From Malachius bipustulatus (Eukaryota; Arthropoda; Insecta; Coleoptera; Melyridae): a stretch of DNA of 64,000 nucleotides. This document shows positions 17,331 to 58,256 of the stretch, piece after piece. The DNA lies in contig OU342634.1 of assembly GCA_910589415.1 (NCBI GenBank), positions 45,311,723 through 45,375,722 on the forward strand. Reading direction: 5' to 3'. The notes under the pieces were generated by a model, which was not told the DNA's origin, ran no database searches, and saw only the letters and a program-made list of their open reading frames with translations. A program made the position numbers and the translations under genes. How positions within the stretch are numbered: the stretch's first letter is position 1; every line of letters begins with the position of its first letter.

Positions 17331-17333
17331 GTA

Positions 17334-19200
17334 CTCGGGTGAAGTTAGCAACGAAAACTTAGCAACGGGAGTGGCTAAACATCCGGCTGCGGTACGATGA
17401 TAATTTAATTACATAATCTGCTATTATTGTTTGAACGGGGTTGATTTTTCTCCTTCGTTTGGAAAAATAAATACCCCAGCAACGCACCAAGGGCAATTTT
17501 TTAGCCGAAAATCTAAAATTACAACACCTGAATATGCGGATTCGGAATTTCAAAAAATCACTGTGGCCGTTCTGGGCCCGGGCAAGACGAGTTTTCACGA
17601 AGGGATGATAGGGTGGACCTTTGTCCTTGGTTTGAAAAAATAAAAACCCCAACAACGCATCAAGGGCAGTTTTTATAGCCGAAAATCGAAAATAAAAAGA
17701 TCCACCCTATTATCCCTTCGTGAAAACTCGTCTTGCCCGGGCCCAGAACGGCCACAGTGATTTTTTGAAATTCCGAATCCGCATATTCAGGTGTTGTAAT
17801 CTTAGATTTTCGGCTAAAAAAATGCCCTTGTTGCGTTGCTGGGGTTTTTATTTTTTCAAACCAAGGACAAAGATCCACCCTATCATCCCTTCGTGAAAAC
17901 TCGTCTTGCCCGGGCCCAGAACGGCCACAGTGATTTTTTGAAATTCCGAATCCGCATATTCAGGTGTTGTAATTTTCGATTTTCGGCTATAAAAACTGCC
18001 CTTGATGCGTTGCTGGGGTTTTTATTTTTTCAAACCAAGGAAAAAGATCCACCCTATCATCCCTTTGTGAAAACTCGTCTTGCCCGGGCACAGAACGGCC
18101 ACAGTGATTTATTGAAATTCCGAATCCGCATATTCAGGTGTTGTAATTTTCGATTTTCGGCTATAAAAACTGCCCTTGATGCGTTGCTGGGGTTTTTATT
18201 TTTTCAAGCCAAGGACAAAGATCCACCCGATCATCCCCTCGTGAAAACTCGTCTTGCCCGGGCCCAGAACGGCCACAGTGATTTTTTGAAATTCCGAATC
18301 CGCATATTCAGGTGTTGTAATTTTCGATTTTCGGCTATAAAAACTGCCCTTGATGCGTTGCTGGGGTTTTTATTTTTTCAAGCCAAGGACAAAGATCCAC
18401 CCAATCATCCCCTCGTGAAAACTCGTCTTGCTCGGGCCCAGAACGGCCACAGTGATTTTTTGAAATTCCGAATCCGCATATTCAGGTATTGTAATTTTCG
18501 ATTTTCGGCTATAAAAACTGCCCTTGATGCGTTGCTGGGGTTTTTATTTTTTCAAACCAAGGAAAAAGATCCACCCGATCATCCCCTCGTGAAAACTCGT
18601 CTTGCTCGGGCCCAGAACGGCCACAGTGATTTTTTGAAATTCCGAATCCGCATATTCAGGTGTTGTAATTTTCGATTTTCGGCTATAAAAACTGCCCTTG
18701 ATGCGTTGCTGGGGTTTTTATTTTTTCAAACCAAGGACAAAGATCCACCCTATCATCCCTTCGTGAAAACTCGTCTTGCCCGGGCACAGAACGGCCACAG
18801 TGATTTTTTGAAATTCCGAATCCGCATATTCAGGTGTTGAAATTTTAGATTTTCGACTAAAAAACTGCCCTTGATGCGTTGCTGGGGTTTTTATTTTTTC
18901 AAACCAAGGACAAAGATCCACCCTATCATCCCTTCGTGAAAACTCGTCTTGCCCGGGCACAGAACGGCCACAGTGATTTATTGAAATTCCGAATCCGCAT
19001 ATTCAGGTGTTGTAATTTTAGATTTTCGGCTAAAAAATTGCCCTTGGTGCGTTGCTGGGGTATTTATTTTTCCAAACGAAGGAGAAAAATCAACCCCGTT
19101 CAAGCAATAATAGCAGATTATGTAATTAAATTATCATCGTACCGCAGCCGGATGTTTAGCCACTCCCGTTGCTAAGTTTTCGTTGCTAACTTCACCCGAG
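17334..19200. mobile_element. 1.87-kb foldback element with TA flanks and a 174-bp tandem core
   Basis: Ends are inverted copies starting CTCGGGTGAAGTTAGCAACG (17334) and ending in its complement (19200), each next to TA, which fits a TA target duplication of the Tc1/mariner type. The terminal inverted repeats run about 320 bp (17334-17655 against about 18878-19200) and are almost identical. One repeat unit lies inverted in the left arm, and a head-to-tail array fills the centre and right arm. No transposase is present, so movement would need an outside enzyme. Long translations here are by-products of the 174-bp period. Confidence 0.75.
17700..19020 (+). repeat. Tandem array of 174-bp units (8 copies)
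   Basis: TCTTGC(C/T)CGGGC recurs at 17731, 17904, 18078, 18252, 18426, 18600, 18774 and 18947, giving steps of 173 or 174 bp. Copies differ by a few substitutions (for instance CCCGGGCCCAG, CTCGGGCCCAG and CCCGGGCACAG), which shows local homogenisation. Because 174 is a multiple of three, one frame stays open for about 334 codons with a 58-residue period. I regard that as accidental. The units hold ATTTTCGATTTTCGGCTATAA and a GCCCGGGC core. Confidence 0.85.
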
Positions 19201-19204
19201 TATG

Positions 19205-27754: not shown

Positions 27755-29240
27755 AAAAGAAACTCCTGTGTCTTACTACCCAAAAATTAAAGTTACACAC
27801 CTCAAAATTTTGCCTGATTTTGATTGGGGATAACTTTCGATATTCCCAAGGGATTTCAATTTTATTTTCGCATGTCAGCATCAGCTCTCTCCTTTATTTT
27901 TCTGCTTTATTGGATCTAAACACAATCAAACTGTCAACAAATTTCCTACAGGGTGATATGCGTGAAGACGCGAAATCACTATGCGGCTTTCGTACCATCA
28001 TTTTCCAAATAAACTTTTCTTGCAAGTTTTGATGAGAAAATTTCGAGGTGGTGACATCAAAAAATCAACTTCTTGCTCTTGAAGTGCATAACTTTTTTTT
28101 CTCGCCAACAAATTTTGTAAATTTAAGCCTCGTATTGAAGCTAAAACTTCAGGCAAGGAAATCCAGGAGCGAAAAACAATAAAAAAATTTTTTTTTTTTA
28201 AAGTTGCATAAAAAATTACTCAAATTTAAATTTCTTCTGGAAACAAGTTTTGGGAGAAAAATTGAATGAAAATCAGCTTGTGAACCAGAAAAATCATTTG
28301 TGAACCAGCCTTCATTTTGTGAATATTTTAAGAATTTTTCAGTCAAATTACATCTGCACGTTTTCAGGAGCAATCGACACTCTTTCTTACTTGAGAATGC
28401 GGTCGTTACCATCATTACGAAAATTCTAACAGTCACTACTTGACTGAAACGAGCTAGTACTAGTGATTGTTAGAATTTTTCGTGGCAGATCATTTGCAAG
28501 AAAGAGCTCTGATTTTCAACTGAAAACGCGCAGATGTAATTGGATTGGACTGTTGTCATCGACATTTTTTATCTCGTGTTAGCAAGAACGTTGTTCAGAA
28601 TAATTGCAGTTTTGTTTGGAGACAAGTTTATTTTTATTAAATTTTCCCACAAAACCTGTTCTCAGAAGAAATATAAATTTGAGTAATTTTTTATGCAGTC
28701 TTTTGTTTTTAATGTTTTTCGCCTCTGGATTTTCTTGTCTGAAGTTACGAGGCTTAAATTTCCAAAATCGGTTAGCCAGGAAAAAGTTATGAACTTCAAG
28801 AGCAAACAGTTCATTTTTTGAGGCTACCATGTACCTATCTATGTAATGTAAATACCAAAATTACTAAAATTGGTTGATGACCAAAGTTGAACCAAAAATT
28901 TCAAAAGCGTCTTGAAGTGAGACATTAAACTTCAAAATTTTCTCATCAAAACTTGCAAGAAAAATTCATTTGAAAACCGGGGTACGAAAACAACGGAGTG
29001 ATTTTTCACGCCTTCACATACCACCCTGCTGTAGAAAGTTTGCTTGCAGTTTTGTGCGAGTCTAGATCAAATAGAGCAGAAAAATAAAGAACAAGGCTGC
29101 TGACATGCAAGAACAAAATCGAAATCCCTTGCATGGGAACATCGAAAGTTATCCCCAATCAAAATCAAGCAAAATTTTTGAGTGCGACATTTTAATTTTT
29201 GCGTAGTGTAGATGAAAAATTCTACTTCTAAGACCAAAGA
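27755..29240. repeat. Old 1.5-kb inverted repeat (decayed foldback)
   Basis: Left-arm segments (CTTGCAAGTTTTGATGAGAAAATTT near 28018, GATTGGGGATAACTTTCGAT near 27821, TCTTGAAGTGCATAACTTTTT near 28077) recur inverted in the right arm (near 28935, 29145 and 28785). The axis is near 28480. Divergence and indels are heavy. The 154-codon plus frame at 27568-28032 and the others here are chance frames in this repeat. Confidence 0.6.
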
Positions 29241-35960: not shown

Positions 35961-37599
35961 TGTTGCTGGAAACTTTTATCTAGGCGTCCGGAATCGCTGA
36001 TAAGGTGACCGAATCTCTGGAAGTGGGTAGAATTTGATTTTTTCTTGGACCTACCTAATTTTAATATTAAGGCAAGATTAAAATAATGTAAAAAACATCA
36101 TTTTAAGCGAATCGAGAGCAACTCATCTTCGAGCGGGTGATACTCCTAGCGCCTCGTTGCTCATCTGACATAACGGTAGGTCTGCAGTTATCATCATGTC
36201 AGACAATTTTAAACGGTTCAAAATGAGCAGATTTTATAAGATCCGGCTCGAAGGATCAATCTATCAGATAAGTTTGAAAATCGACCTATTAAATGAAATT
36301 TTTATCAAGGGGCATCGGAATTTTTTTTAATCAACTTGAGTTCATAATATCTTCGAAATAAGAGGAGGGAGTATTAGGTAGTATCGCAGATATATTAATT
36401 TATGTAGGCTGAATTCTTGTAAATGGTGACTTCTGCGCAGGGATACACCTATCTTATATAAAATAGCCTTCATCGAGTAATAAGATGTCAAAATCCCATT
36501 GTACGTCGAATTTGACGTGTGCGCTATCATATATTTCTCAGCTTCAACGTTTCAATGAATTTTTTCACACACGAATCACGAATCCAATTTGTATATCACT
36601 TTTATACTCTGGTATTCTTTAACAAAGCTATTATGTTTTCAGCGGAGATGATATGATTTAGCATCGGAGTATTGTGTATGCCGAGACGTAAACCCATGAG
36701 AGGTATTGAAAGATTCAAGGCTCGTCCGATACAGATGCAAATTTAATTCCTGCTGAACCCGTAGAAGGGCGAACAACAAAGGGACTCGATCTGCATTCAG
36801 GTCACCTCGTTGTTGACTTGCTCTTTTGATAGGCCGCGCTTTGTGCAGGAACAACCGCATCGGAGGATAAAGCACAAAGGTAAGGACATACACAAAGTCT
36901 TTTCTCTCTGTGCTGTATCAGTAGTGAACCCCGTCCGAGTAAATTTTATTTGCAAATTTATTTTTAAGTTTGTTTGCCAAAGATAATATTTGCACAAGAC
37001 TGACCGAATAATAAAAGATCACCATGATTTATTTACTGAATAAATTAGTTTCTATTTTTTTCTTAAATACCTACCTATATGACATATCCAGGTTAAAAAA
37101 TTTAGCAAGGCATCTAAAGACGACAGCCGATATTAAAGGCATATACTTGAAGAGTTTGTAAAATTTGTAAAAGTAAATATCCCAAAAGAGCTTAAAATGA
37201 CAACCGTAACCAGAAAAAATATAATCGACATTTCTCGGAAATCTTAAACAAGAAGCAAATATGTATCGTGAAAAGCAAAGATGCAAGAATTGAACCACCA
37301 CGCACTAAATAAATATCGCTGTGCAAATCTTTACGGCACCTTACTTTTGGTGGTAGCTCAATCACAGATCTAGTGATTGAACGACAGAGGCTCAAATATT
37401 GACCCCCGTGGAACTCCAGTTGAAATAGATATCACTAACTATTACATTTATAATTATTTTTATTGAACCACTACCACTAATTATATTATTATATAATATT
37501 TGATGAATTTTATTGGGATTTAGGTTCTAATTTAAATTTGCCAGTAAAGATTCTTTACAGAACAAATTAGAAAAACTTTCGTACAGCATGCGAGGAGAA

Positions 37600-37663
37600 G
37601 ACTGAAGACATGGACGGTACCGTTTCGTCCTTATTATGGACTCATCAGCATATCATATCAGTC
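37600..37663 (-). ncRNA. Hammerhead ribozyme (type I), left arm
   Basis: Read on the minus strand this is the mirror of the motif at 38198-38261. The CTGATGA core is at 37648-37642; stem II is GTCC/GGAC (37641-37638 with 37630-37627) around a seven-base loop; GAAA follows; stem III is ACG/CGT with a GTAC loop; and the GTC cleavage triplet ends at 37613. Stem I is intact: six pairs (37649-37654 with 37607-37612), a 3/1 internal loop, and six more pairs (37658-37663 with 37600-37605). Every base of the conserved core is present, so it should self-cleave if transcribed from this strand. Confidence 0.82.
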
Positions 37664-38197
37664 AGATCCAAACCACACATGCTATACGAAATTTGGAAGT
37701 TATATCTATTCTAACTGGTGTTTTCGTTTTGTAGTGACTTTTAATTTTTAATGAGCAAGTAGGCAACCAGAGAAACGTGCGTGTCTTTTATATAGTATTA
37801 TCCTCGCTATACAGTAGAGTTTTCATGGATTTATGAACTTTTACACTACTAATGCAGAGGTTTTATTATTTCAAGAACTACACATTGATTCTCATAAGTA
37901 TATACCTACCTACATTCATTTTCAAGCTAATTTTATTGAATTTTTTACTAGTGTATTTATTAAGTAGATGTTAATACACGAATTAAGCTGTTATGGCACA
38001 TTCTTTCACCCTGGCCTTTTTAGATTTATAATTATTTTTATTGAACCACTAATTTAATTTTGCCACTAAAGATTCTTACCAGATTCTTTCTCTGCTTGCC
38101 TACTTCTCATTAAAAATTAAAAGTCACTACAAAACGAAAACACCAGTTAGAATAGATATAACTTCCAAATTTCGTATAGCATGTGTGGTTTGGATCT

Positions 38198-38261
38198 GAC
38201 TGATATGATATGCTGATGAGTCCATAATAAGGACGAAACGGTACCGTCCATGTCTTCAGTC
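38198..38261 (+). ncRNA. Hammerhead ribozyme (type I), right arm
   Basis: Stem I is GACTGA (38198-38203) with TCAGTC (38256-38261), a TAT/T internal loop, then GATATG (38207-38212) with CATGTC (38249-38254). The core CTGATGA occupies 38213-38219. Stem II is GTCC (38220-38223) with GGAC (38231-38234), loop ATAATAA. GAAA is 38235-38238. Stem III is only ACG/CGT (38238-38240 with 38245-38247) closed by GTAC. C38248 is the cleavage-site base. A very short, self-complementary stem III (ACGGTACCGT) is typical of retrozyme and Penelope-type hammerheads, which act best as dimers. All invariant core positions match the known hammerhead consensus. Confidence 0.85.
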
Positions 38262-38330
38262 TTCTCCTCGCATGCTGTACGAAAGTTTTCTAATTTGTTC
38301 TGTAAAGAATCTTTAGTGACTAACTATTAC

Positions 38331-42680: not shown

Positions 42681-42686
42681 CTTATA

Positions 42687-43267
42687 CAGGGTGTACCAGC
42701 TCGATTTAGACAACGGTAAGGGCCGTGTAGGTCTCGTCAAGACGAAACGTTTTTTTATTTCAAGTTTTTGGATTTGGACCTTCGTTGCGGAAATATGGCC
42801 GACTTCCGGTTTTTAGTTTTTTGGCTTCAGTTTCGGCATTTTTAGATTCTCGCCCAAACTGAAACTAGTTTTGGAAACTCCTTAGCTTCAGTTACAACTT
42901 TCATATTGAAGTCAAGGTTCTATCTCTGTTGGATTCAAAATGGCGACATGCCCAAGACTTTAAATTTTATGTCTTTGAATCCATTCAAATTGAATCAAAT
43001 TGAAAAATTAAGATTTTGAATCCAACAGAGATAGAACCTTGACTTTAATATGAAAGTTGTAACTAAAGCTAAGGAGTTTCCAAAACTAGTTGCAGTTTGG
43101 GCGAGAACCTAAAAATGCCGAAACTGGAGCCAAAAAACTAAAAACCGGAAGTCGGCCATATTTCCGCAACGAAGGTCCAAATCCAAAAACTTCAAATAAA
43201 AAAACGTTTCGTCTTGACGAGACCTACACGGCCCTTACCGTTGTCTAAATCGAGCTGGTACACCCTG
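42687..43267. mobile_element. 581-bp near-perfect palindromic MITE (foldback)
   Basis: The ends are CAGGGTGTACCAGCTCG and its complement, both next to TA (42685-42686 and 43268-43269). The two arms of about 280 bp are inverted copies with only scattered differences around a short centre near 42980. CAGGGTG ends with TA duplication are common in insect MITEs of the Tc1/mariner group. It has no coding capacity. Confidence 0.8.
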
Positions 43268-43269
43268 TA

Positions 43270-46090
43270 TATAAATTATTATTGTTGAAGACCTTATTAA
43301 CTACTTACGGGATAAATTTGAACATAGCTTTTAAAAAATAAAAATTTGCTGCTTTGATTGGGGAGGTATTCTTTGCGAAAAATAGTCCTCAAAAAGACCA
43401 ACCAAGACACAGTGAATATATAGAAATAAAATGTGGATATGTATGAGCAGATTAGAAAAAAAAAATTGTTACGGCTGCTAAGAAACTTGTAGATTGGAGC
43501 AAATATCCATGAAATTGTACTGTATCAATGGGGATACATCTAAACAAAGATCTTTTCTGTCTCCCTTTCTGGTGACTATTCGATTATGGCACCCTATACT
43601 TAATCAGGAGTCAATGAAATTGCACAATTTCGAAATACTGCATGTTTAATTTTTAAGCAATATTAAGCGTCGTGAACGAAAAGCAAAAACAATTTAACTA
43701 GGCCAAGAAACAACCACCGCGGCAAAAATTTAATGACGCTAGCTGAATTTTTTAATGTAACGCTGACTGCAGAAGGATTGGTAAACTGGAACAACTCGCA
43801 TGGTTATCATTTTCCTATCAGAATGCACCTAGCTTTTATTTACCTACGTCAAGTAACTGGACGACCGGTAAATAAAAGTCAAAGTGGCAACACTCCAGTG
43901 AAAATCACATTTCGAAACCCGAGAAAGAGTAACTGATTTGGAAAGGGGTTTAGAAACCAAAAAGTTAGTGGTGTTTCGGGGACCGAAGAGGACGGTCAGG
44001 GCGTTCGCGCGAGAATTTAAAGTAAACGCGAGTGAGTGATTTGTTTCTTTCAGGGGGAGATACCCAGCAGAGCTGCAGTCAGAGCTACAGAAAGGGCAAT
44101 CCAAGGGCTACATCTAAGTAGTAAGTCGATGAGACTAACACTAGGACTTTACTGTTTTTCCGTTCGAAAGATTTTTATTAATTTTATTTTTTTTATTTAA
44201 AGAAATTTTATTTTTGATTTAGATTTAATCAACTTTGGTGTTCATATTTATCACCCTTGACCACCCTAACACTGAATTTCACATAAAGTGGGCTCTACTC
44301 TTAGCAGCCCCCGAATCTACGTGCCTCACACCTCTCTGACCACTATCATTGGCAAACCGCTCGGCCCACTTGATAGCGGTCCAACCCCTTGACAGCCAGA
44401 AAGAAGGTGAGACTACAAAAACTGGTGTCAAGAGGCTAGGCACCCGCCTCACTTCTTCATAATTAGAGTAAGGCCGAATTTATAGTTCTGACGTAAATGT
44501 TTCTACTGGCACTCAGTATGATGTGAATGAAGGATCCTCTCTCATCCTAATCTATTTGATAAAGCGATTGATCGTTATGACGGAGGAACTACCAGAACCA
44601 GAACACGTCCCATGATAGCCTTTGGCCTTTGGGGAGGGATAGGTATTACAGTGGGTATTTGTGGATAGATGACAGCAGAGAGGGTGTTGAGGAAAACTGT
44701 AGTGTTATATCTGGAGGATTCAAATCTAATGTGGCCATAAAAAGTGATGGATATGACTACCGCACAGGGACCTGTAGGAGATATTAATTGTCTTGTAGCA
44801 CAAAAGAAAGTCTTTTTGAATATACAGTGAGGCCAGTGAAGAGAATGCCAAAAGAAGACTCCCCTCCCTTTGAATTAGAAATGATACTATAAGAGAGACG
44901 ATTAAAGTGAGGAGTCCCGAAAAATATTGAGAAGAGCAGACTAGATGGGTTTCGTTAGGTATGCGAGAAGGTGACTAGTTGGAAGAAAGATGAGCTTGCA
45001 GGTGGTAAAACTGGTGAAAAAGTGAAAAAAAAGGTGGACTGTGTTGTGGAAGACTCAAGAAAGAAGGACATGAGAGAAGAGGATGGATTGGGAAGGTACC
45101 GAATTCGTAGTGAATGTCATCGAAGAAAGTGTGCCGTACCATAGAAGGCAGGGCATAATTTTGGAAAAGGGGGTTTAGAAGCACATATATAAAGTGAAGA
45201 ACAAACTTCTTCTCGAAGTTGATTCCAGAAAGCGCTATGGCTAGTGATATGGATTGATCGACCCCCACGGAAGAGAAAAACGTAACAGTAATTAGATATA
45301 AGCGATCAATAATAATAATCGCGTCAGCTGCTGCGCTTCAACTCGTTACGTCTTTAATATGAAGAAGTTTCCACATTTTTTATTATCAATATATGAAATG
45401 TCGCTTGGTAACAGCAGTTGAAATTAAATAAAATTAATGGTATTACATTGTTAATGTCCATCTGTGGAGAACAAAATCATTTCTATTCTAAATTATTATG
45501 ATTGGGAAACCTTGATAAAGTTTTTATGTATATAAGTCGAAAGAGATGGTTTTTCTGGTTTTTCTATTGGCATTCCGGAAATTATTTCAACTTTAACTTC
45601 GCTGGGAAAAGTTCCGAGATGTGAAATAAATGCGGGTTGATGTTAATAAAACTTTTATGAATTCATACGGTTAACTAGCAATTTGGATTTAACTTGCAGG
45701 ATTAAATAGTCGATCCGCAACAAAAAGACGATTTTCTAGATTGGCTATAAGTGCATGAAACCGAAATCTAATTTCGTATTTATAGGTCTGTCTTGTAATT
45801 TGTAATTTCAATTTAAATTTGACATTAAAGTTTAAAATATGTCCGAAGTCCATCTTTAATAAAAATAATCCTGCATGGTGACTGGAAAGTGGTTACATAG
45901 TTACATATATAATTAAACAGTTACCATGTAGCAGAATTCAGAACTGTCTTTATTCAAATTATTCATCCATTCTTTCTCTGTTTAGACGGCAAGAAAAAAT
46001 TATTCCTTCCTCACTGTGGTAATCATGGGCTCGCATAACTGTAGCTCATTCCACCCAGACCTATTCTTACAATTTAAATAGTTAAATAGA
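43270..46090. other. No gene recognised; possible retroelement debris
   Basis: 43700-44110 carries a short plus-strand stretch (LETKKLVVFRGPKRTVRAFA) of protein-like character that I cannot assign, and 44280-44460 is GC-richer. No delimitable element. Confidence 0.35.
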
Positions 46091-47290: not shown

Positions 47291-48377
47291 TGTAGGATTG
47301 TTTCATATGTTTGTGTAAGTGTGGGTGTTATTCTTGTGTGTGTATTGTTTGGGCATGCGCTGGGCTTTTGGTCCGGTAATAATCCCGGAAGGAATTCTCT
47401 CTGTGTGACAACTGACTGCGGGAGAAAGTCCCTGGAAACGTTTGCATTTATTTTATAATGAATGTTACTTTTATATTAATTATTATTCATTAATAGACAA
47501 AACGTTGACTGTTTTAAGACCTAATTGATTTTAGCTCAGTATTCAGATGCATCAGACTATCATAATACTGGATGCGATAAGATATAAAAAAATTCTCGGC
47601 TAATAGGGCTCCATGACGCTTCTCAACCCCTGAATATTTTATGTCAAATCTTCGATCCAGCTTCTCCTTAATAGCCGTTCACTTCTTCTCTTTGAAGATT
47701 GCTTTGGTATCTTTTCTTCAGGCATCCTTTGGACGAGATCGTGCCAATGGATGTCGTATAACTTGTCGTGTTTTTTTTTTCATTATGGTGCGATCAAACC
47801 TCGTTTGGCAGTGTGAATAAAATAAAGCATTATAGCGTTTACTATATATGCACATTTTGTCACATTTTTCCATGAAGGCGGTGGAGGGAAATGGAAGAAA
47901 TGGACCAATATGGAGAGAAAGATCTTTAGTATAATGTAGCGAGACCAACAACAAACTATACAGTGGTGAGCACCCAAAGCTTGACGTGTATACATGATTC
48001 AAAAACAACTCCAGGCGGAATTAGAGCCGCAAAAAACTCCCTATAGTTTCCATTGGAGTACCGATTGAACAGCTGGCGATTTTCTAAGGATGATATCTCT
48101 GTCTTATGAAGTGTCAGTGGGTCTATGCGTGCATAATATTATGTTATCTGTTGAGAATTCTTACTACTTTGGCAAGACCAGTAGCATGCTTTCCCCAAGA
48201 AAAGCTTCCATTAACAGTCAGTATTCAAGGTTGGAGAAAGATGGACTGTACTTTGCGGTTTTCCCGGACATAGTGCATGATACCTGGACCAGTTGTTAAC
48301 CTGTGTTTTTAGAGCATTGAACTGAGCCAACTTATCAGAGCTCCGATCTAAAATTGCACTTAGGTCAAAATTGATTC

Positions 48378-48650
48378 GCTTTGATTTTTTGATTGGCTTA
48401 AGCAGCATCCTTCCGGATACTCCAGATGCAGCACACTGATGAGCTCCAGTAGAGCGAAACACGTGTCTGTCCTTGGCTCTGCTGTTGGATGTGGAAACTC
48501 TCTACGTTTAAGTTTCGGGCCCTGCCATCATGACAACTGTTAGGGCGATGGAGGAATTCTCCGACCCCATCTAACAGGCTAGTAATTGCACTTTATGTGC
48601 TTTATACTTATACTCATTCGACCTACGTTCATTATTTTATTTATTAACAA
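48378..48650 (+). mobile_element. 273-bp hammerhead-bearing non-autonomous retroelement inserted in a LINE
   Basis: The block is flanked by identical 11-bp copies of AAAATTGATTC (48367-48377 and 48651-48661). It interrupts a minus-strand LINE reverse transcriptase relic: removing the block plus one repeat joins the two halves in a single frame at the R-I-N-x-D-L segment, with the spacing expected in the family. So the boundaries are supported both by the direct repeats and by the restored reading frame. Inside are a plus-strand hammerhead and a GC-richer stretch to about 48590; the 3' part is AT-rich, ending in TTATTTATTAACAA. No coding capacity. It could be a monomeric retrozyme or a 5'-truncated end of a Penelope-like element. 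Confidence 0.72.
48428..48482 (+). ncRNA. Hammerhead ribozyme (type I) in the 273-bp element
   Basis: The core CTGATGA is at 48436-48442. Stem II is GCTC (48443-48446) with GAGC (48452-48455) and loop CAGTA. GAAA is 48456-48459. Stem III is ACA/TGT (48459-48461 with 48464-48466) with a two-base CG loop, and C48467 is the cleavage base. Stem I starts ACA/TGT (48433-48435 with 48468-48470); after an internal loop GCAG (48428-48431) can pair with CTGC (48479-48482). The core is perfect; stem I is weaker than in the pair at 37.6 and 38.2 kb. The stem III palindrome ACACGTGT again favours dimer formation. The sequence is otherwise unrelated to the other two, so it is a different family. Confidence 0.7.
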
Positions 48651-48999
48651 AAAATTGATTCTGTCCACGCTAAACTGTCTCTAAACTGGTAGGGATATCC
48701 GTGGACTTGGCAGATTTCGAAAATGTAAATTTTGTATGGAGTATTATACTGATCGGCGAAACTGTGAATCTGATGGTTTGATGTTAAACAAAGCAGGCCG
48801 TTTGTATTTAGAAGGAACAGAGTGGGTGAATAAACCGAGTCCTGGGGCACTCCTGAGTTTATGACATAAGAATTAGATAATGATCCATCACCTCATTTCC
48901 CATACTTGAAAAAAGCAATCGTTTATCTTCCTTGGTATGTATCTGTATCCTATCTACATTTCCTTTTTTGCCACTAGGACAGTGGCGGCTTTTCAACTG

Positions 49000-49520: not shown

Positions 49521-51230
49521 TGCATTAGGATTCCTTCTCGCTTGAACTTCACTCTCAAATCTTTATATTCTTCGCAGTGTGCTTTATCGTTCAACAGCTT
49601 TCTGTGACAATTCCACCCACCACGTCTGATTTTTAACTAATTGGATAATGATTTTGCTCTGTCGAAAAAAACGACCCCTCCCATATTTTTATCATGACCG
49701 GAACGACTCTTGGGTAGTCACCTTCTTCTCTAGAGCTAATTTTTATAAAACGCAATGGCATTAGTTTGACCACGTTTTTTCCACGTTTGCCCAACAAAAA
49801 TTTTCGTTTGTCTACACCCTCCAAAAAAAGTTAAGTACCTATGTCAAAATTAAAAAAAAATAATGCAATAATACATAAAAATAAGAATGCAAGTCTCATG
49901 GTTGTGGAATCCGTGAAAAAGGGACTAGGTATACTTATTAGGTCTCTTTCCGTTATAAATTTGTAAGATTATTTTATAAATCTGTATTGAATTCAAATAA
50001 TCGTTTTTTTATTCTCTGGAGCACTATTAAAAAAAATTTAATCGACATGGATAAATGCGCTTCGCTTTGAAATGATTCATCTGAGGATTGTTTATTCGCA
50101 TTTACTCAACAATTGGGGTTAAAAATAGCTTATTGAGTTGTTTTTCATTTACTTATTTCATTGATGAATGATTCGGAATCGACCTTTGAAAATTTCATTG
50201 GTGATAAATTGAAATTTTCTTGATGTATTGTTTAGAAAACGCGATACAAAGTTGATTGTATTAACTTCCGAAAGTGTTTTATAGTCGCCATAAATTTTAT
50301 ATCGATATTCCATTCTTCACCTATTAAAAACATCAAGGAATTCTGAAATCATAAAAATCCACCAAAAATCACAAAAAAATATCGACCGACACGTACGACT
50401 ATAAATAATTAATTTTGCTTTGCGTTCATATTTATTGCATCACATCAGCACATGATTACACAGATTAATTGTTATTTTCAAATATTGGCGTTGGAACATT
50501 CACAATTTTGATACATCATTAATGTTCCCCACGTGTCAAAACAGCGGATTTTTAATCCTAACATCCGATTATTATTTACGTGTTGCATTAATATTAACAA
50601 ATAATTCGAGGAGGGGAGGATTTCGACTGATTCATTTCGACTCATCGTGAAGCGTCGCGAAGAAGTTACCGGCAGCAGTTTTTTATTTACCTCCCGATAC
50701 CTAATGAGATTTGTAGGTAGGTATTCAAGTTTGCTGCTAAAAGTATGAAATTCGTATTAATGGAGCTTCTTGATAATTGGCTACCTTGACCTCTCCCCTA
50801 TTAAGGATAAGTTACTTATTCGAATGACCTACTTTATTATATAAGTTATACAAAGTATGTATTGTGTTATCAGTTATCACTTAAACTTCCATTCATATGT
50901 TTATACAATAAGAATATGTAATAATATAATAATGCGATAATGTTTTATTGTTATCTACTTAAGGAAACTGAGTTAAGAAAACAATGGCACAAATTCTATG
51001 GGTCACTTCCCGAATACAAAGATTCAAACTGTTATTTGGAATATTACTATAATCGAAATTTAAAAAAAATCACCAGATTTTTGATAATATTACCGTTATT
51101 ATTATTAGTACTTTATTATCGCTTCTTTAATATGGGTTTCCAGATCAAAATCTTGTCTCGTGGTTCCAATTTTTTCCAATAATCTGTCTCATATTATACT
51201 TATTTATAGCTTTAGATACAATAAACTTTA

Positions 51231-52353
51231 GGTCCCTAATTTAAGCATGACACATTTTTTTTAAATTAATATTTTTTAAAACTGATGACGAGGGATTTTC
51301 GAGCTATTTTCGAGCTCTTCAATGGTATTTTCGAGCTGTCTCTAGCTTTCACCGTTTTCCGGAAAATCGCAATTTTTTTATTTGTAATGCTTACATTACA
51401 CCTGACTTTTTTAAATTCAATCTGTGGAGAAACCCAAACAACACAGGAATTTCGAGCTATTTTCGAGCTACTCAATGAGATTTTCGAGCTGTTCCTAGCT
51501 CTCGTAATTTTCCGGAAAAACGAAAAAAACCGCTTCGTCGTGCTAGGATTTGACCTCAATTTTGAAAGTACGTACTCCCGGAAAAACCGAAAAGCACAGG
51601 AATTTCGAGCTATTTTCGAGCTACTCAATGAGATTTTCGAGCTGTTCCTAGCTCTCGTAATTTTCCGAAAAAACGAAAAAAACCGCTTCGTCGTGCTAGG
51701 ATTTGACCTCAATTTTGAAAGTACGTACTCCCGGAAAAAACGAAAAGCACAGGAATTTCGAGCTATTTTCGAGCTACTCAATGAGATTTTCGAGCTGTTT
51801 GTAGCTCTTTTCATTTTCCGGAAAAACGAAAAAAACCGCTTAGTCGTGCTAGAATCGGACCTAAATTTAGTAAGTAAGTACATACTCCCAGAAAAAACGA
51901 AAAGCACAGGACTTTTGAGCTATTTTCGAGCTACAAACAGCTCGAAAATCTCGTTGAGTAGCTCGAAAATCGCTCGAAATTCCTGTGCTTTTCGTTTTTT
52001 CCGTGAGTACCTACGTACTTTCAAAATTGAGGTCAAATCCTAGCACGACAAAGCGGTTTTTTTCGTTTTTCCGGAAAATTACGAGAGCTAGGAACAGCTC
52101 GAAAATCTCATTTAGTAGCTCGAAAATAGCTCGAAATTCCTGTGCTGTTTGGGTTTCTCCACAGATTGAATTTAAAAAGTCAGGTGTAATGTAAGCATTA
52201 CAAATTAAAAAATTGCGATTTTCCGGAAAACGGTGAAAGCTAGAGAGAGCTCGAAAATACCATTGAAAACTCGAAAATAGCTCGAAAATCCCTCGTCATC
52301 AGTTTTAAAAAATATTAATTTTTAAAAAATGTGCCATGCTTAAATTAGGGACC
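51231..52353. mobile_element. 1.12-kb foldback element with 153-bp internal repeats and TA flanks
   Basis: It begins GGTCCCTAATTTAAGCATG and ends in the inverted copy (CATGCTTAAATTAGGGACC), with TA on each side (51229-51230 and 52354-52355). The left arm holds three or four tandem units of 153-157 bp (starts near 51445, 51598, 51751 and 51908), each with several TTTTCGAGCT motifs. The right arm holds the same sequence inverted with fewer units. The whole region can fold into a long hairpin. Open frames of 213-252 codons on both strands reflect the 153-bp period, not a protein. Confidence 0.75.
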
Positions 52354-53534
52354 TATAAACTTATCCAGAACAAAACGTAAGTCATATTTTATTATTCCAA
52401 TAATAATAGACAAGCTAGTTAGTATTGCATTGTCATCGAGTTCTGAGGTATGCTGAAAGTTTCGAGCCTCTGGCTCTTCGAGAAATTAGTTTAAAATCGA
52501 TTGCAAGATTTGATCACAGACAGGATTCTATCTTACTATGTACCTACTTGTAACGCCGATGTTATTTTAACCATATTCACTAACACTAACCGAATTACAT
52601 AGATACATATTAACATTATAATGAGATGAGATAAGCCAAGTGTTAAAGAAATTATATGAATATATATACTTCTGAAATCGATTCTATTTCCTTTGCAAGC
52701 AAGGACAAAATTAGTTCCTTTTTGATTACATGCCTTATGCGCATCAATCTTGGATAATGTTTATGAAAATTGCACCGAAAGCAATATATTTCATATAACG
52801 AAGTGTCAGCAGCGATAAAATTGCAATTTCCATATAAATCGCACTTCATAATACCTGCATTCTTGAATTATTCATTCAAAATGCATAAGGAAGACTGGTT
52901 GTCATTCTGAAAGATCATCTTAGTAAAATACATCTCTTTGATTCGTCAGAAGTTGCACAATATTTTTTTTTACATTATTTTACATAATCCAATCAGAAAA
53001 TATTCATATAATGATCATTATTATTATTGTGGTGGTAAAATTAGCATACCACACTTACTAACTATGTGACTCTGTTAAATTGTATTATAATTATTTTAAT
53101 TTACAAAAAAAAATTGAAATCATTACTAAACCCATGAATTTTTTTCCCATTTAATTATTATCTCAGTTTTCAGACACTTTTTGCCAAAAATAAGTAATGG
53201 TATGGTAACAATGCTAAATAAGATCGAACACACTTAATTTAAAACTCCAAGATTGCATGATTTCGATCAGTATAAAGTCCAGACAGCAGAATTTGCATAC
53301 TTGGTACAAACATGCGTGAATTGAAATTATGTATTTCGTCAATCATAAACTGTTATTTTTGGCTGTAAGACTCAATTATTGCGCTGTAGAATCAAAAGTT
53401 CCGGAATTCAGATTCGTGTAATCAATAATAATTACGCCGCAAGAACTTTTTCTTGTAGGTAATAAGACTTTTCCCACTCACTCAAATTTTTTTTAATAGC
53501 TACTACATGCCATAATTGAATAGAATTGTTTTTG

Positions 53535-55310: not shown

Positions 55311-55529
55311 TGGATCTTGTACTGCTTAGAATCTATGCTTCACCAACTTTGAAATCCACGAGCCGCCATTTTTTCTCCACAAAATTGGCCATTGTACATT
55401 CAACATTTTGAACGTAGTGTACAGGGTGAGCGAAACATTGTCTCCTCTTCGACAAGGTTTCATTTTCGAAAGTATTAACAAAAAAAAAAAATTCATAATA
55501 CCTAATTAAGGAAAAAAATTCATACTTAC

Positions 55530-56099
55530 GAATTATTGATCGAATTAGGTGTACTAGACGGTGTCGGCCTTTTCTCTTCCCTAATCGTACTGCTGTTAAT
55601 TTTCGACGTCAATTTCTTCAACACGTTATCCATACTCCTCTTCAACGGATGTGACGAACTATTATTATTGAACAAACTACTATTATTATTATTATGAAAA
55701 CTACTCTTCAAATCAGGACTACTGCATTCGGACGAATTCCTCCTGCTCCCCTGATTCTCCAACGACAACGACGAGATACTGCTCGGAGGTAGGAGGTTAT
55801 TCCCGACATCGCTGGAGGATATCCGGGGTGTTTTTGGAGGGATCCTGTCCTCATCCTCGCTATTCGAGGCGCTTGTTGAGGACTCGGAGAGCTTGTAGAA
55901 CGAGGGGGTGGAATTGTTGACCATTGAATGGGCGTCTTCTTCGCCGATGTCGCTCAGATTGGCGCTGCTGGTCTCGTCTAGGTCAGTTAGGCCGCCGCCG
56001 TCACTGCTGCCGCCGACGATCGTGGGCGGTAATGGGGCGGAAGTGTCTGGTCCTTCTTGGAATTTTGTTGGGGGGGATTTCCGTTTTGATGACATAGTT
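55530..56099 (-). CDS. SoxD-like transcription factor, first coding exon (N-terminal ~188 aa)
   Basis: Seen: on the minus strand a pyrimidine-rich acceptor (TTTGTTTCAG) ends at 56100, the exon opens AACT and the first ATG is at 56095. The frame stays open to a consensus donor (GTAAGTATG) just below 55530, so the 570-bp exon is bounded by good splice sites at both ends. The protein starts MSSKRKSPPTKFQEG, then runs through low-complexity acidic/Ser/Gly/Asn-rich sequence, with a basic-amphipathic patch near residues 163-180 (LKRSMDNVLKKLTSKI). That patch recalls the KGSLADVVDTLKQKK-type segment of vertebrate Sox5/6. The last codon is split after two bases (TC), which fits the exon at 46235-46388. 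Known: SoxD proteins are nuclear HMG-box factors that dimerise through a coiled coil. Inferred: this is the N terminus of the SoxD gene. The 5' UTR is spliced, so the promoter lies upstream of 56.1 kb or outside the window. The exon itself is near certain; the SoxD name is likely but not proven, since no HMG box is in the window. Confidence 0.78.
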
Positions 56100-57165
56100 C
56101 TGAAACAAATATAATATAATGTAATTAAGGCAATCATTAATGAATTATTACTATACTATAACTAGTGAAATTTATTATGCATGTTAGAAGTAGAGGGTAA
56201 TGTAAGCACCGAACTTCTCAAGGAGCCAAATCAAGCTGAGTTTCAAAAAAACGTCACTATCGTTGACATATCGTTGAAATTTAATAATCTAGGTAATCAG
56301 TTTTATGTCCTCATGAGCTTTCCAGATCTGAAAGAGCGCTGACTTCGTCTGGAGCATATACAACGCTTACGAGGCCTGGGACAAGACGGCTTTCTTCAAC
56401 GTCTTATTGCGCATGTTGAGGACATTTTCTTATCTTGCGGGTGCACGAGGTTCTCCTCTTTATTCGGCCATAACTAGACCTACTTCTTCGACGAGCCGCG
56501 CATCGATTACAAGAACCCGTTATTTGTTTTATAAAATCGAACAAGAAATTTTGATGAAAATGGGCCTCACTGAGCTTTGAGTCATTAAGTCTATATTGAA
56601 GAGTCTAGAAGTTAATAACTCTATATGGCAAAGCAAATAAGTTATTAATTCATTATAAACCTCGTCTTTTATTTGTAATTTTCCCTATTATTAACACACG
56701 CTGAGCTATAATGAGTGTAAGTATTATCCAATTTATTACATAACTGTATGCAAAAAGTGTACAAGAATAATTTAAATAATACCCAAGTAGGTATATAATA
56801 ATATAAGTAAGTACGTATCTATAATATGTATAATTTTGTTTAATAGGTAATAAAAAAATGATTAAAATGCACATATTTGTTATTATTTTATCTAACATAT
56901 AGAGACAACATCCCTGGACCAGTTGAACGATTTGAACACGCATCATTATAATATTTATGATTTTTTAAAGCAATTTGGGAAAAATCTTCATAATTTTTGT
57001 ACCAAACCGATTATGTATAAAAATAATATTTTCTTCTCGCATTCATGCACTATTTTTATGTTCAATATTATTTTAAATCAATGCTACCTCCTGTGAAATA
57101 AACATACTAGATATTTGGAACGAATAATAGTTGTTTCGACCCACTTAAAGAAGATAAACTCCTGC
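56100..57165. other. Intron upstream of the first SoxD coding exon
   Basis: Follows from the acceptor at 56100-56101. The upstream untranslated exon was not identified. Sequence is AT-rich with no other feature. Confidence 0.45.
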
Positions 57166-57794: not shown

Positions 57795-58256
57795 ATAATT
57801 ATGAGTTCCGGTGGTGTCCCAGGGGGGAGGAGGGGAGAGTCTCACGATTAATAGTGACAAAATAATGTACCTAAGCCACTGACTTGTTTACAAACTTTAT
57901 ATTTTTTTGGGTTAAACAGCTAAAAATACAACTTTTCTTGTTTCCTGATTTCTTTCGTATCTTACTTCGTTTTCGAGAAATAAAATAAAATCCGCTTAAA
58001 TGCATATCGAAAATTTTATTTTAATTTTAATGATTTTATTTTATAAGTTTTTCGACTTGCACTAAGGCGGATTTTAATTTTTTTTCCTCGAAAACAAAGT
58101 AAGATACGAAAAAAATCAAGAAACAAAAACGTTTTATTTTTAGCTATACTTTTAACCAGAAAAAATAATTTGTAATTACGCGTTTTGTAAATATTATTCG
58201 TGAGACTGCCCCCCCTCCCCTCCCCCCCCCGGGTCGCATCTGGAACTCATAATTAT
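57795..58256. mobile_element. 462-bp foldback MITE with C/G-homopolymer shoulders
   Basis: ATAATTATGAG with GTTCC at the left end is mirrored by GGAACTCATAATTAT at the right. Just inside, a G-rich run (57820-57837) faces a C-rich run (58208-58231). Deeper matches include TCGTATCTTACTTCGTTTTC (57956-57975) against its complement (58093-58112). The arms are diverged, so the copy is old. Confidence 0.6.

Follow-up and report, generated by a model that had tools for sequence, protein, structure and literature searches.

Structure of the insertion

The window, by which we mean the whole 64,000-nt stretch of DNA analyzed, carries an insertion of 873 bp (37446-38318) with a 12-bp target duplication, ACTAACTATTAC, on both sides. 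The chance of such a repeat at fixed positions is ~2e-7, and its edges coincide with boundaries that had been set independently, namely where the repeat unit begins (37446, and again at 38024) and where the homology between the arms ends; the target duplication described in the original prediction is thus a true one. The two arms (37542-37775 and 38087-38318), which had been called near-identical inverted copies, are indeed 98.3% alike over 234 nt, and their core of 184 nt is 100% complementary; the chance that the four differences between the arms would spare 180 or more consecutive nt is 0.013. The features of the insertion are as follows, unit positions being those of the retrozyme unit defined below.

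37434-37445, no strand: left copy of the 12-bp target-site duplication, ACTAACTATTAC
37446-38023, minus strand: one complete retrozyme unit of 578 nt (RNA sense minus), its start repeated at 38024
37446, minus strand: end E1, the boundary on the RNA 3' side, found within ~4 nt in 22 loci
37487-37499, minus strand: position of E2 (unit positions 42-54), where other loci end, not used by the window copy
37607-37654, minus strand: type I hammerhead motif in the sense RNA (Hammerhead_1, 28.1 bits), cleavage predicted after C37613
38024-38083, minus strand: beginning of another direct unit, internally shortened by 53 nt (unit positions 1-28 and 82-116 remain), by blastn and alignment
38087-38318, plus strand: part of a unit in inverted orientation (from unit position 330 to 97), 98.3% identical to the left arm
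38207-38254, plus strand: hammerhead motif of the inverted half (Hammerhead_1, 28.1 bits), cleavage predicted after C38248
38319-38330, no strand: right copy of the 12-bp target-site duplication

On one side the window copy therefore has a complete unit and a fragment, on the other 232 nt; its second outer end lies at unit position 97 instead of E2. Its longest stop-to-stop frame encodes 67 aa and is antisense to the RNA; no copies of this frame were found when it was searched in the protein collection. A different partition, in which a 295-bp unit with terminal inverted repeats (38024-38318) had been flipped by recombination, was dropped because the genome copies define the unit as 37446-38023. 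Just outside the left target repeat, a 25-nt stretch (37412-37436) is 84% like a part of the arm (38139-38163; blastn E 0.19), a likeness which is probably due to chance.

Elsewhere in the window, a frame on the minus strand (55529-56155, 189 residues searched) shares 58-66% identity with the named beetle proteins in its first 30 matches (from Asbolus, Cryptolaemus, Dendroctonus, Henosepilachna and Phaedon) and up to 68% with unnamed ones, while moth proteins rank lower, at 46% or less; one of the matches carries the name of Schwannomin interacting protein 1. These likenesses make a beetle the most likely source of the window. Long palindromic or inverted-repeat elements were also observed at 42683-43271 (with mariner-like ends, TATACAGGGTGTACC), 51229-52355, 28049-28829 and 57795-58256, and an element at 17332-19202, ending in TACTCGGGTG, has inverted ends of ~360 nt that are 97.8% identical, with tandem units of ~174 bp between them. 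Rfam matches to MIR7533 (E 3e-17) and MIR8007 on the elements at 42683-43271 and 51229-52355 score below the gathering thresholds and are probably not miRNAs.

Hammerhead motifs of the window copy

The two hammerhead motifs, identical in sequence and opposite in orientation, each match the Rfam family Hammerhead_1 (RF00163) over its full length (1-45 of 45) with 28.1 bits, corresponding to E = 1.9e-4 in a search of 1.2 kb and to 0.0099 for 64 kb against all 4227 families. These full-length matches, together with the 12-bp target duplication, bear out the claim of two hammerheads in opposite orientation inside one element. The score lies below the Hammerhead_1 gathering score of 34, so that neither motif is listed in a default Rfam scan. 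The string CUGAUGA, followed by a 4-bp stem II and GAAA, occurs three times in the window (in both arms and at 48436) vs not once in 60 first-order random sequences.

The core bases and stems are as had been described: stem I has 6+6 bp with an internal loop (UAU/U), stem II has 4 bp and stem III has 3 bp closed by GUAC. On the minus strand the core spans 37613-37648, and cleavage is predicted after C37613 on that strand or after C38248 on the plus strand. In contrast, the idea that a read-through RNA would hold a ribozyme in each arm had to be given up, as the transcript of either strand contains one ribozyme and its exact antisense. Folding of the whole element gave a hairpin of -457.6 kcal/mol that leaves the ribozyme pairs a probability of practically zero; in an isolated 64-mer the catalytic fold lies 1.5 kcal/mol above the minimum with a stem III pair probability of 0.016, and within a 295-nt segment this probability is 0.0. 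Because each transcript has a single sense ribozyme, the window copy is not expected to yield RNA of unit length; circles would therefore need loci with at least two direct units.

A hammerhead-like motif of other sequence lies at 48418-48486 on the plus strand (core at 48436; Rfam Hammerhead_HH9, 20.8 bits, E 1.6), with an ATG that overlaps CUGAUGA, close to what is described for the Penelope element PAc. By eye, LINE-like protein fragments flank it on the other strand (48647-48892 and 48214-48501); a Pfam search of nine frames of the window returned no families.

Genomic copies and the repeat unit

When the 544-Mb assembly (52 contigs), in which the window lies on contig C6 at 45311723-45375722, was searched with the element as query, 234 matches were recovered in the best-scoring 40 of 1502 candidate places, the places being grouped from the matches listed. 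Our sample thus comprises 40 loci, 39 fetched plus the window, onto which the unit 37446-38023 was mapped by blastn. Loci L001-L008, which came from the same search and were refetched or read in the window, were dropped before counting, and a distant 75% hit in L039 (at 111-265) and short blastn hits inside longer ones were left out. Because selection was by best score with a partly inverted query, the share of inverted loci (31 of 40) may overstate that of the genome as a whole.

The other loci contain head-to-tail units of 571-576 nt whose first position corresponds to 37446, giving a unit size of 571-578 nt across loci, with the RNA sense on the minus strand of the window. More than one unit in a half was seen in several loci: L032 has five direct units, L028 about three per side and L011 about three units and a fraction on each side. 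The many copies with shared ends among these best-scoring 40 of 1502 candidate places support the suggestion that the element belongs to a non-autonomous family. The inverted arrangement is unusual, as had been noted; paired inverted ribozymes are, however, not supported as its functional design, the unit being a monomer of 571-578 nt with a single ribozyme, and the inversion would be the way in which two cDNA halves were joined at insertion. An exact search for the 36-place motif gave no matches in the viral collection and none in the genome contig collection, both of which may exclude records from the genome of the window.

In three loci, palindromic MITE-like elements are nested in retrozyme units (L018, 3138-4329; L035, 2933-3589; L036, 2812-3543 and 3957-4807); these are later inserts, with TA-type ends such as TACAGGGTGT.

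The family resembles the metazoan non-LTR retrozymes of Cervera and de la Pena (2020, PMC7229834), as far as these are characterized in the accessible text of that paper, in being a small AT-rich repeat with no long frame, with a type I hammerhead, head-to-tail copies, target duplications of more than 4 bp and many copies. Such retrozymes are non-coding repeats with neither LTR, PBS nor PPT, and they give self-cleaved linear and circular RNAs in tissue. The window family differs from them in size, the unit measuring 571-578 nt vs about 170-400 nt in the abstract of the paper (circles of 150 to over 1000 nt are given in its discussion), and in that the direct units of most sampled loci switch to an inverted array, with two defined ends; the term "inverted" is absent from the main text of PMC7229834. 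Plant LTR retrozymes (PMC4918200; features as given in PMC7229834 and PMC11722881) are likewise non-autonomous hammerhead elements but, from what these sources state, carry type III motifs in direct LTRs and have a 4-bp target-site duplication (TSD), whereas the window family has type I motifs and duplications of ~12-14 bp.

Outer ends and target duplications

In most of the sampled loci a series of direct units gives way to a series of inverted ones. Outer ends were classed by blastn as E1 (unit position 3 or less) or E2 (positions 4-60, observed at 21-54). Head-to-head arrays with one E1 and one E2 end account for 27 of the 40 loci, one locus (L039) has E2 at both ends and none has E1 at both; three more are inverted with one odd end (the window copy, L022 and L037), and nine have one side only, truncated towards the 5' side of the RNA. 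E1 is thus coupled to E2 in 27 of the 28 loci with two such ends, ~1e-7 against an even chance, E2 lying 41-53 nt further in than E1.

Target duplications of at least 11 bp were found at 25 of the 40 loci, compared with 3.3% of 400 mismatched pairs, and of at least 12 bp at 24 of the 40 (2.2% of the 400); the search tolerated an overlap of up to 23 nt between the repeat and the blastn end, and several duplications extend 8-19 nt into the AT-rich E2 end, so that single lengths are uncertain by a few bases. Among the 27 E1/E2 loci, 22 have a duplication of at least 11 bp, and none of this length was found in L012, L016, L018, L028 and L043. In all 22, E1 lies no more than ~4 nt from position 1, E2 falls inside a 13-nt interval (unit positions 42-54), and on the E2 side the element starts 0-12 nt before TTTGATGAATTTTATTGG or its one-letter variant.

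These ends bear on whether the element could be a DNA transposon, a MITE or foldback element whose long terminal inverted repeats happen to contain a ribozyme, a reading suggested by the presence of six other long inverted-repeat elements in the window. Used as a control, however, these six have no flanking repeat above 10 bp: the longest, of 10 bp, lies inside the element's own palindromic ends, one has 8 and one 7, no repeat of at least 7 bp was found at the remaining three, and three of the six begin with TA. The 12-bp repeat of the insertion, moreover, sits at asymmetric ends (37446 and 38318) and not at the ends of the arms, and both head-to-tail arrays and one-sided copies are unlike the products of cut-and-paste. 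We consider a DNA transposon extremely improbable.

Twin-primed insertions of LINE-1 also contain an inverted part within one target duplication, and twin priming by a LINE-type mover would yield inverted 5' parts of the same kind; LINE-like fragments are present in the window at 48647-48892, judged by eye and with no Pfam match. In twin priming, the inverted part derives from an upstream stretch of the RNA. By contrast, both outer ends of the retrozyme fall in the same 3' region of the RNA in 27 of the 28 loci with two such ends, and full units are possible in both halves, which makes a LINE a very unlikely mover.

The junctions between the halves are informative as well. In only four of 32 do both halves end within 10 nt of the same unit position, and overlaps of up to 30 nt or filler of up to 39 nt are seen at the junctions. 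The four symmetric cases are what would be expected if the mirror image had arisen by fold-back of a cDNA. The halves end at different unit positions in the other 28, and this asymmetry therefore fits the joining of two separate cDNAs and argues against fold-back; furthermore, target duplications flank whole mirror-image arrays, and neither fold-back nor formation of the mirror image after insertion predicts the coupling of E1 with E2. Such an origin hardly seems credible.

Identity of units within loci

Units were compared by substitutions only, from position 60 on, after dropping pieces of <300 nt and pairs with <200 compared sites. Pairs from the same locus have a median difference of 0 whether they lie on the same strand (n = 48, 54% identical) or on opposite strands (n = 61, 66% identical), vs a median of 1.5% for pairs from different loci (n = 4451, 1% identical). 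When ends and gaps were counted as well (pieces of <380 nt and pairs with <250 compared sites dropped), the values were 0.2% for same-strand pairs, 0.2% for opposite-strand pairs and 2.0% between loci. At the extremes, all 15 pairs of L011, within and across halves, are identical over 519 nt, and L030 and L041 show up to six differences between units of opposite halves. The two halves of a locus thus generally derive from one RNA or its copies; gene conversion inside a locus could contribute to the identity of the units. The cDNAs run past the ribozyme cleavage site and over several units, so the template was either circular or an uncut multimer.

The ribozyme lies in a conserved part of the unit. 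Over 40 sequences the 64 nt of the hammerhead have 11 differences, vs a median of 51 per 64-nt window, and 1.8% of such windows are as low; the stretch of lowest variation, at about positions 80-220, includes the ribozyme. The exact motif occurs 100 times in the 40 loci, vs 102 unit pieces that cover it, with five loci falling short.

Penelope-like elements of the same genome

Penelope-like elements were singled out as strong candidate movers of animal retrozymes in PMC7229834, on the basis of shared features and co-occurrence in the parts of the paper available to us. A GIY-YIG search of the genome scored 150 matches of 775 candidates; many lie in frames of 820-855 aa, and among the scored matches some frames are in tandem at ~3325 bp and many form (-,+) pairs. 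Both outer sides of six such pairs were read by eye, and five pairs have one short and one long end, offset by 36-52 nt in agreement with the published Penelope "tail", while in the sixth the end was not reached; the ends of the five adjoin TA-rich flanks. A search for target duplications gave a low-complexity 17-bp candidate at one of the six pairs and nothing at the ends of the others.

A loose hammerhead-like motif was found past the ORF, on the sense strand, in seven of eight Penelope regions. In family F1 the short end lies ~106 nt downstream of the hammerhead start and the long end at most another 52 nt away; in family F3 these distances are 122 and ~36 nt. For the retrozyme, arithmetic on the unit gives ~150-160 nt from the hammerhead start to E2 and a further 41-53 nt to E1, so that it agrees with these two families in the order of ribozyme, near start and far start.

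Long tandem arrays of Penelope-like frames were observed at C11:3382-82839 and C2:60809391-60829603, spaced by ~3325 bp and mostly of 833-841 aa, some being shorter; on C11, an 84-kb contig, the listed matches switch from minus to plus once, head to head.

Published work on the Penelope/Poseidon clade (PMC11167929, PMC3846280), to the extent that these papers were accessible, offers further likenesses: inverted copies arranged head to head, a "tail" at one outer end, AT-rich targets and a start of reverse transcription inside the RNA, downstream of the hammerhead. Purified PAc, a Penelope protein of the anole, acts on both strands of the target, which it cuts and extends, with a preference for AT-rich sequence; it starts inside its RNA, and the interval between its two start sites corresponds to the 30-40 bp genomic "tail" (PMC11167929, from the portion available). 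In rotifers, Penelope elements have inverted pLTRs, one of them with a tail, and TSDs of 8-10 bp; the authors inferred self-priming (PMC3846280, likewise in part). Unlike Penelope-like elements, the retrozyme element has no frame for a reverse transcriptase or a GIY-YIG endonuclease. The suggested link to retrozymes and Penelope-like elements is supported, that to Penelope by layout and not by sequence; the E1/E2 rule speaks for a shared layout and is no evidence of sequence kinship.

The same data allow us to weigh whether the family instead derives from an autonomous Penelope-like element, through internal deletion or with the pLTRs alone, and has no retrozyme RNA cycle of its own. The similar head-to-head layout and two-end rule, and the loose sense-strand motifs in seven of the eight Penelope regions, agree with such a descent. 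However, comparison of the retrozyme with the eight regions of ~1.8 kb revealed no shared nucleotide sequence (best E 0.047), the longest stop-to-stop frame has 67 aa, and stem I of the retrozyme, with its 6+6 bp and internal loop, looks longer by eye than those of the Penelope motifs. A derivative of this kind is in our view unlikely.

Proposed origin of the mirror-image arrays

We propose that the retrozyme was copied by Penelope-type machinery from both cut strands of the target, starting at two internal sites of its RNA, and we give this reading a probability of roughly 0.77. Loci with direct units would be transcribed, and the hammerheads would cut the RNA into units that are closed into circles, by analogy with published retrozymes. 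A Penelope-type reverse transcriptase with a GIY-YIG endonuclease, presumably supplied in trans, would then cut both strands of an AT-rich target ~12-14 bp apart, and the target strands would prime cDNA synthesis inside the same kind of RNA, one at E1 and the other at E2, the latter being the site 41-53 nt closer to the ribozyme. Each cDNA may go round a circular template more than once, which would give several identical units per half, and the two cDNAs would be joined at unrelated positions, with overlap or with filler of up to 39 nt, into the head-to-head mirror-image array that is observed. The window copy would be a short example of such an insertion of joined cDNAs.

Several findings speak against this proposal. 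PAc showed no difference in start site between the strands in vitro (PMC11167929, available part), whereas E1 and E2 occur one on each side. The eight Penelope regions compared share no sequence with the retrozyme, and the search for target duplications at the six Penelope pairs gave a single low-complexity candidate. Among the sampled loci, five of the 27 with E1/E2 ends have no duplication of 11 bp or more, nine of the 40 are one-sided, and L030 and L041 differ between halves. The unit is also larger than the 170-400 nt given for animal retrozymes, and the predicted pairing of stem III is weak in the 64-mer and in the 295-nt segment. A more specific and tentative version, which we regard as possible but rather less than even in likelihood, is that a Penelope-type enzyme, perhaps a dimer, grips one circular hammerhead RNA at two fixed sites ~45 nt apart and, in one concerted reaction, primes a different target strand at each.

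In the literature searched, outside which most subscription papers lie, no retrozyme is described as a mirror-image array. If priming at the two sites were indeed concerted, one circle would give rise to both arms of a complete insertion. Retrozymes would in that case parasitize Penelope elements, with the E1/E2 rule as a genomic footprint of priming from both strands on a circular template. A quantitative insertion footprint shared by the two kinds of element within one genome makes the question of what moves retrozymes directly testable and also accounts for the mirror-image layout. With many near-identical insertions at hand, the start sites, the template length and the joining step of a Penelope-type reaction may be read from the genome itself.
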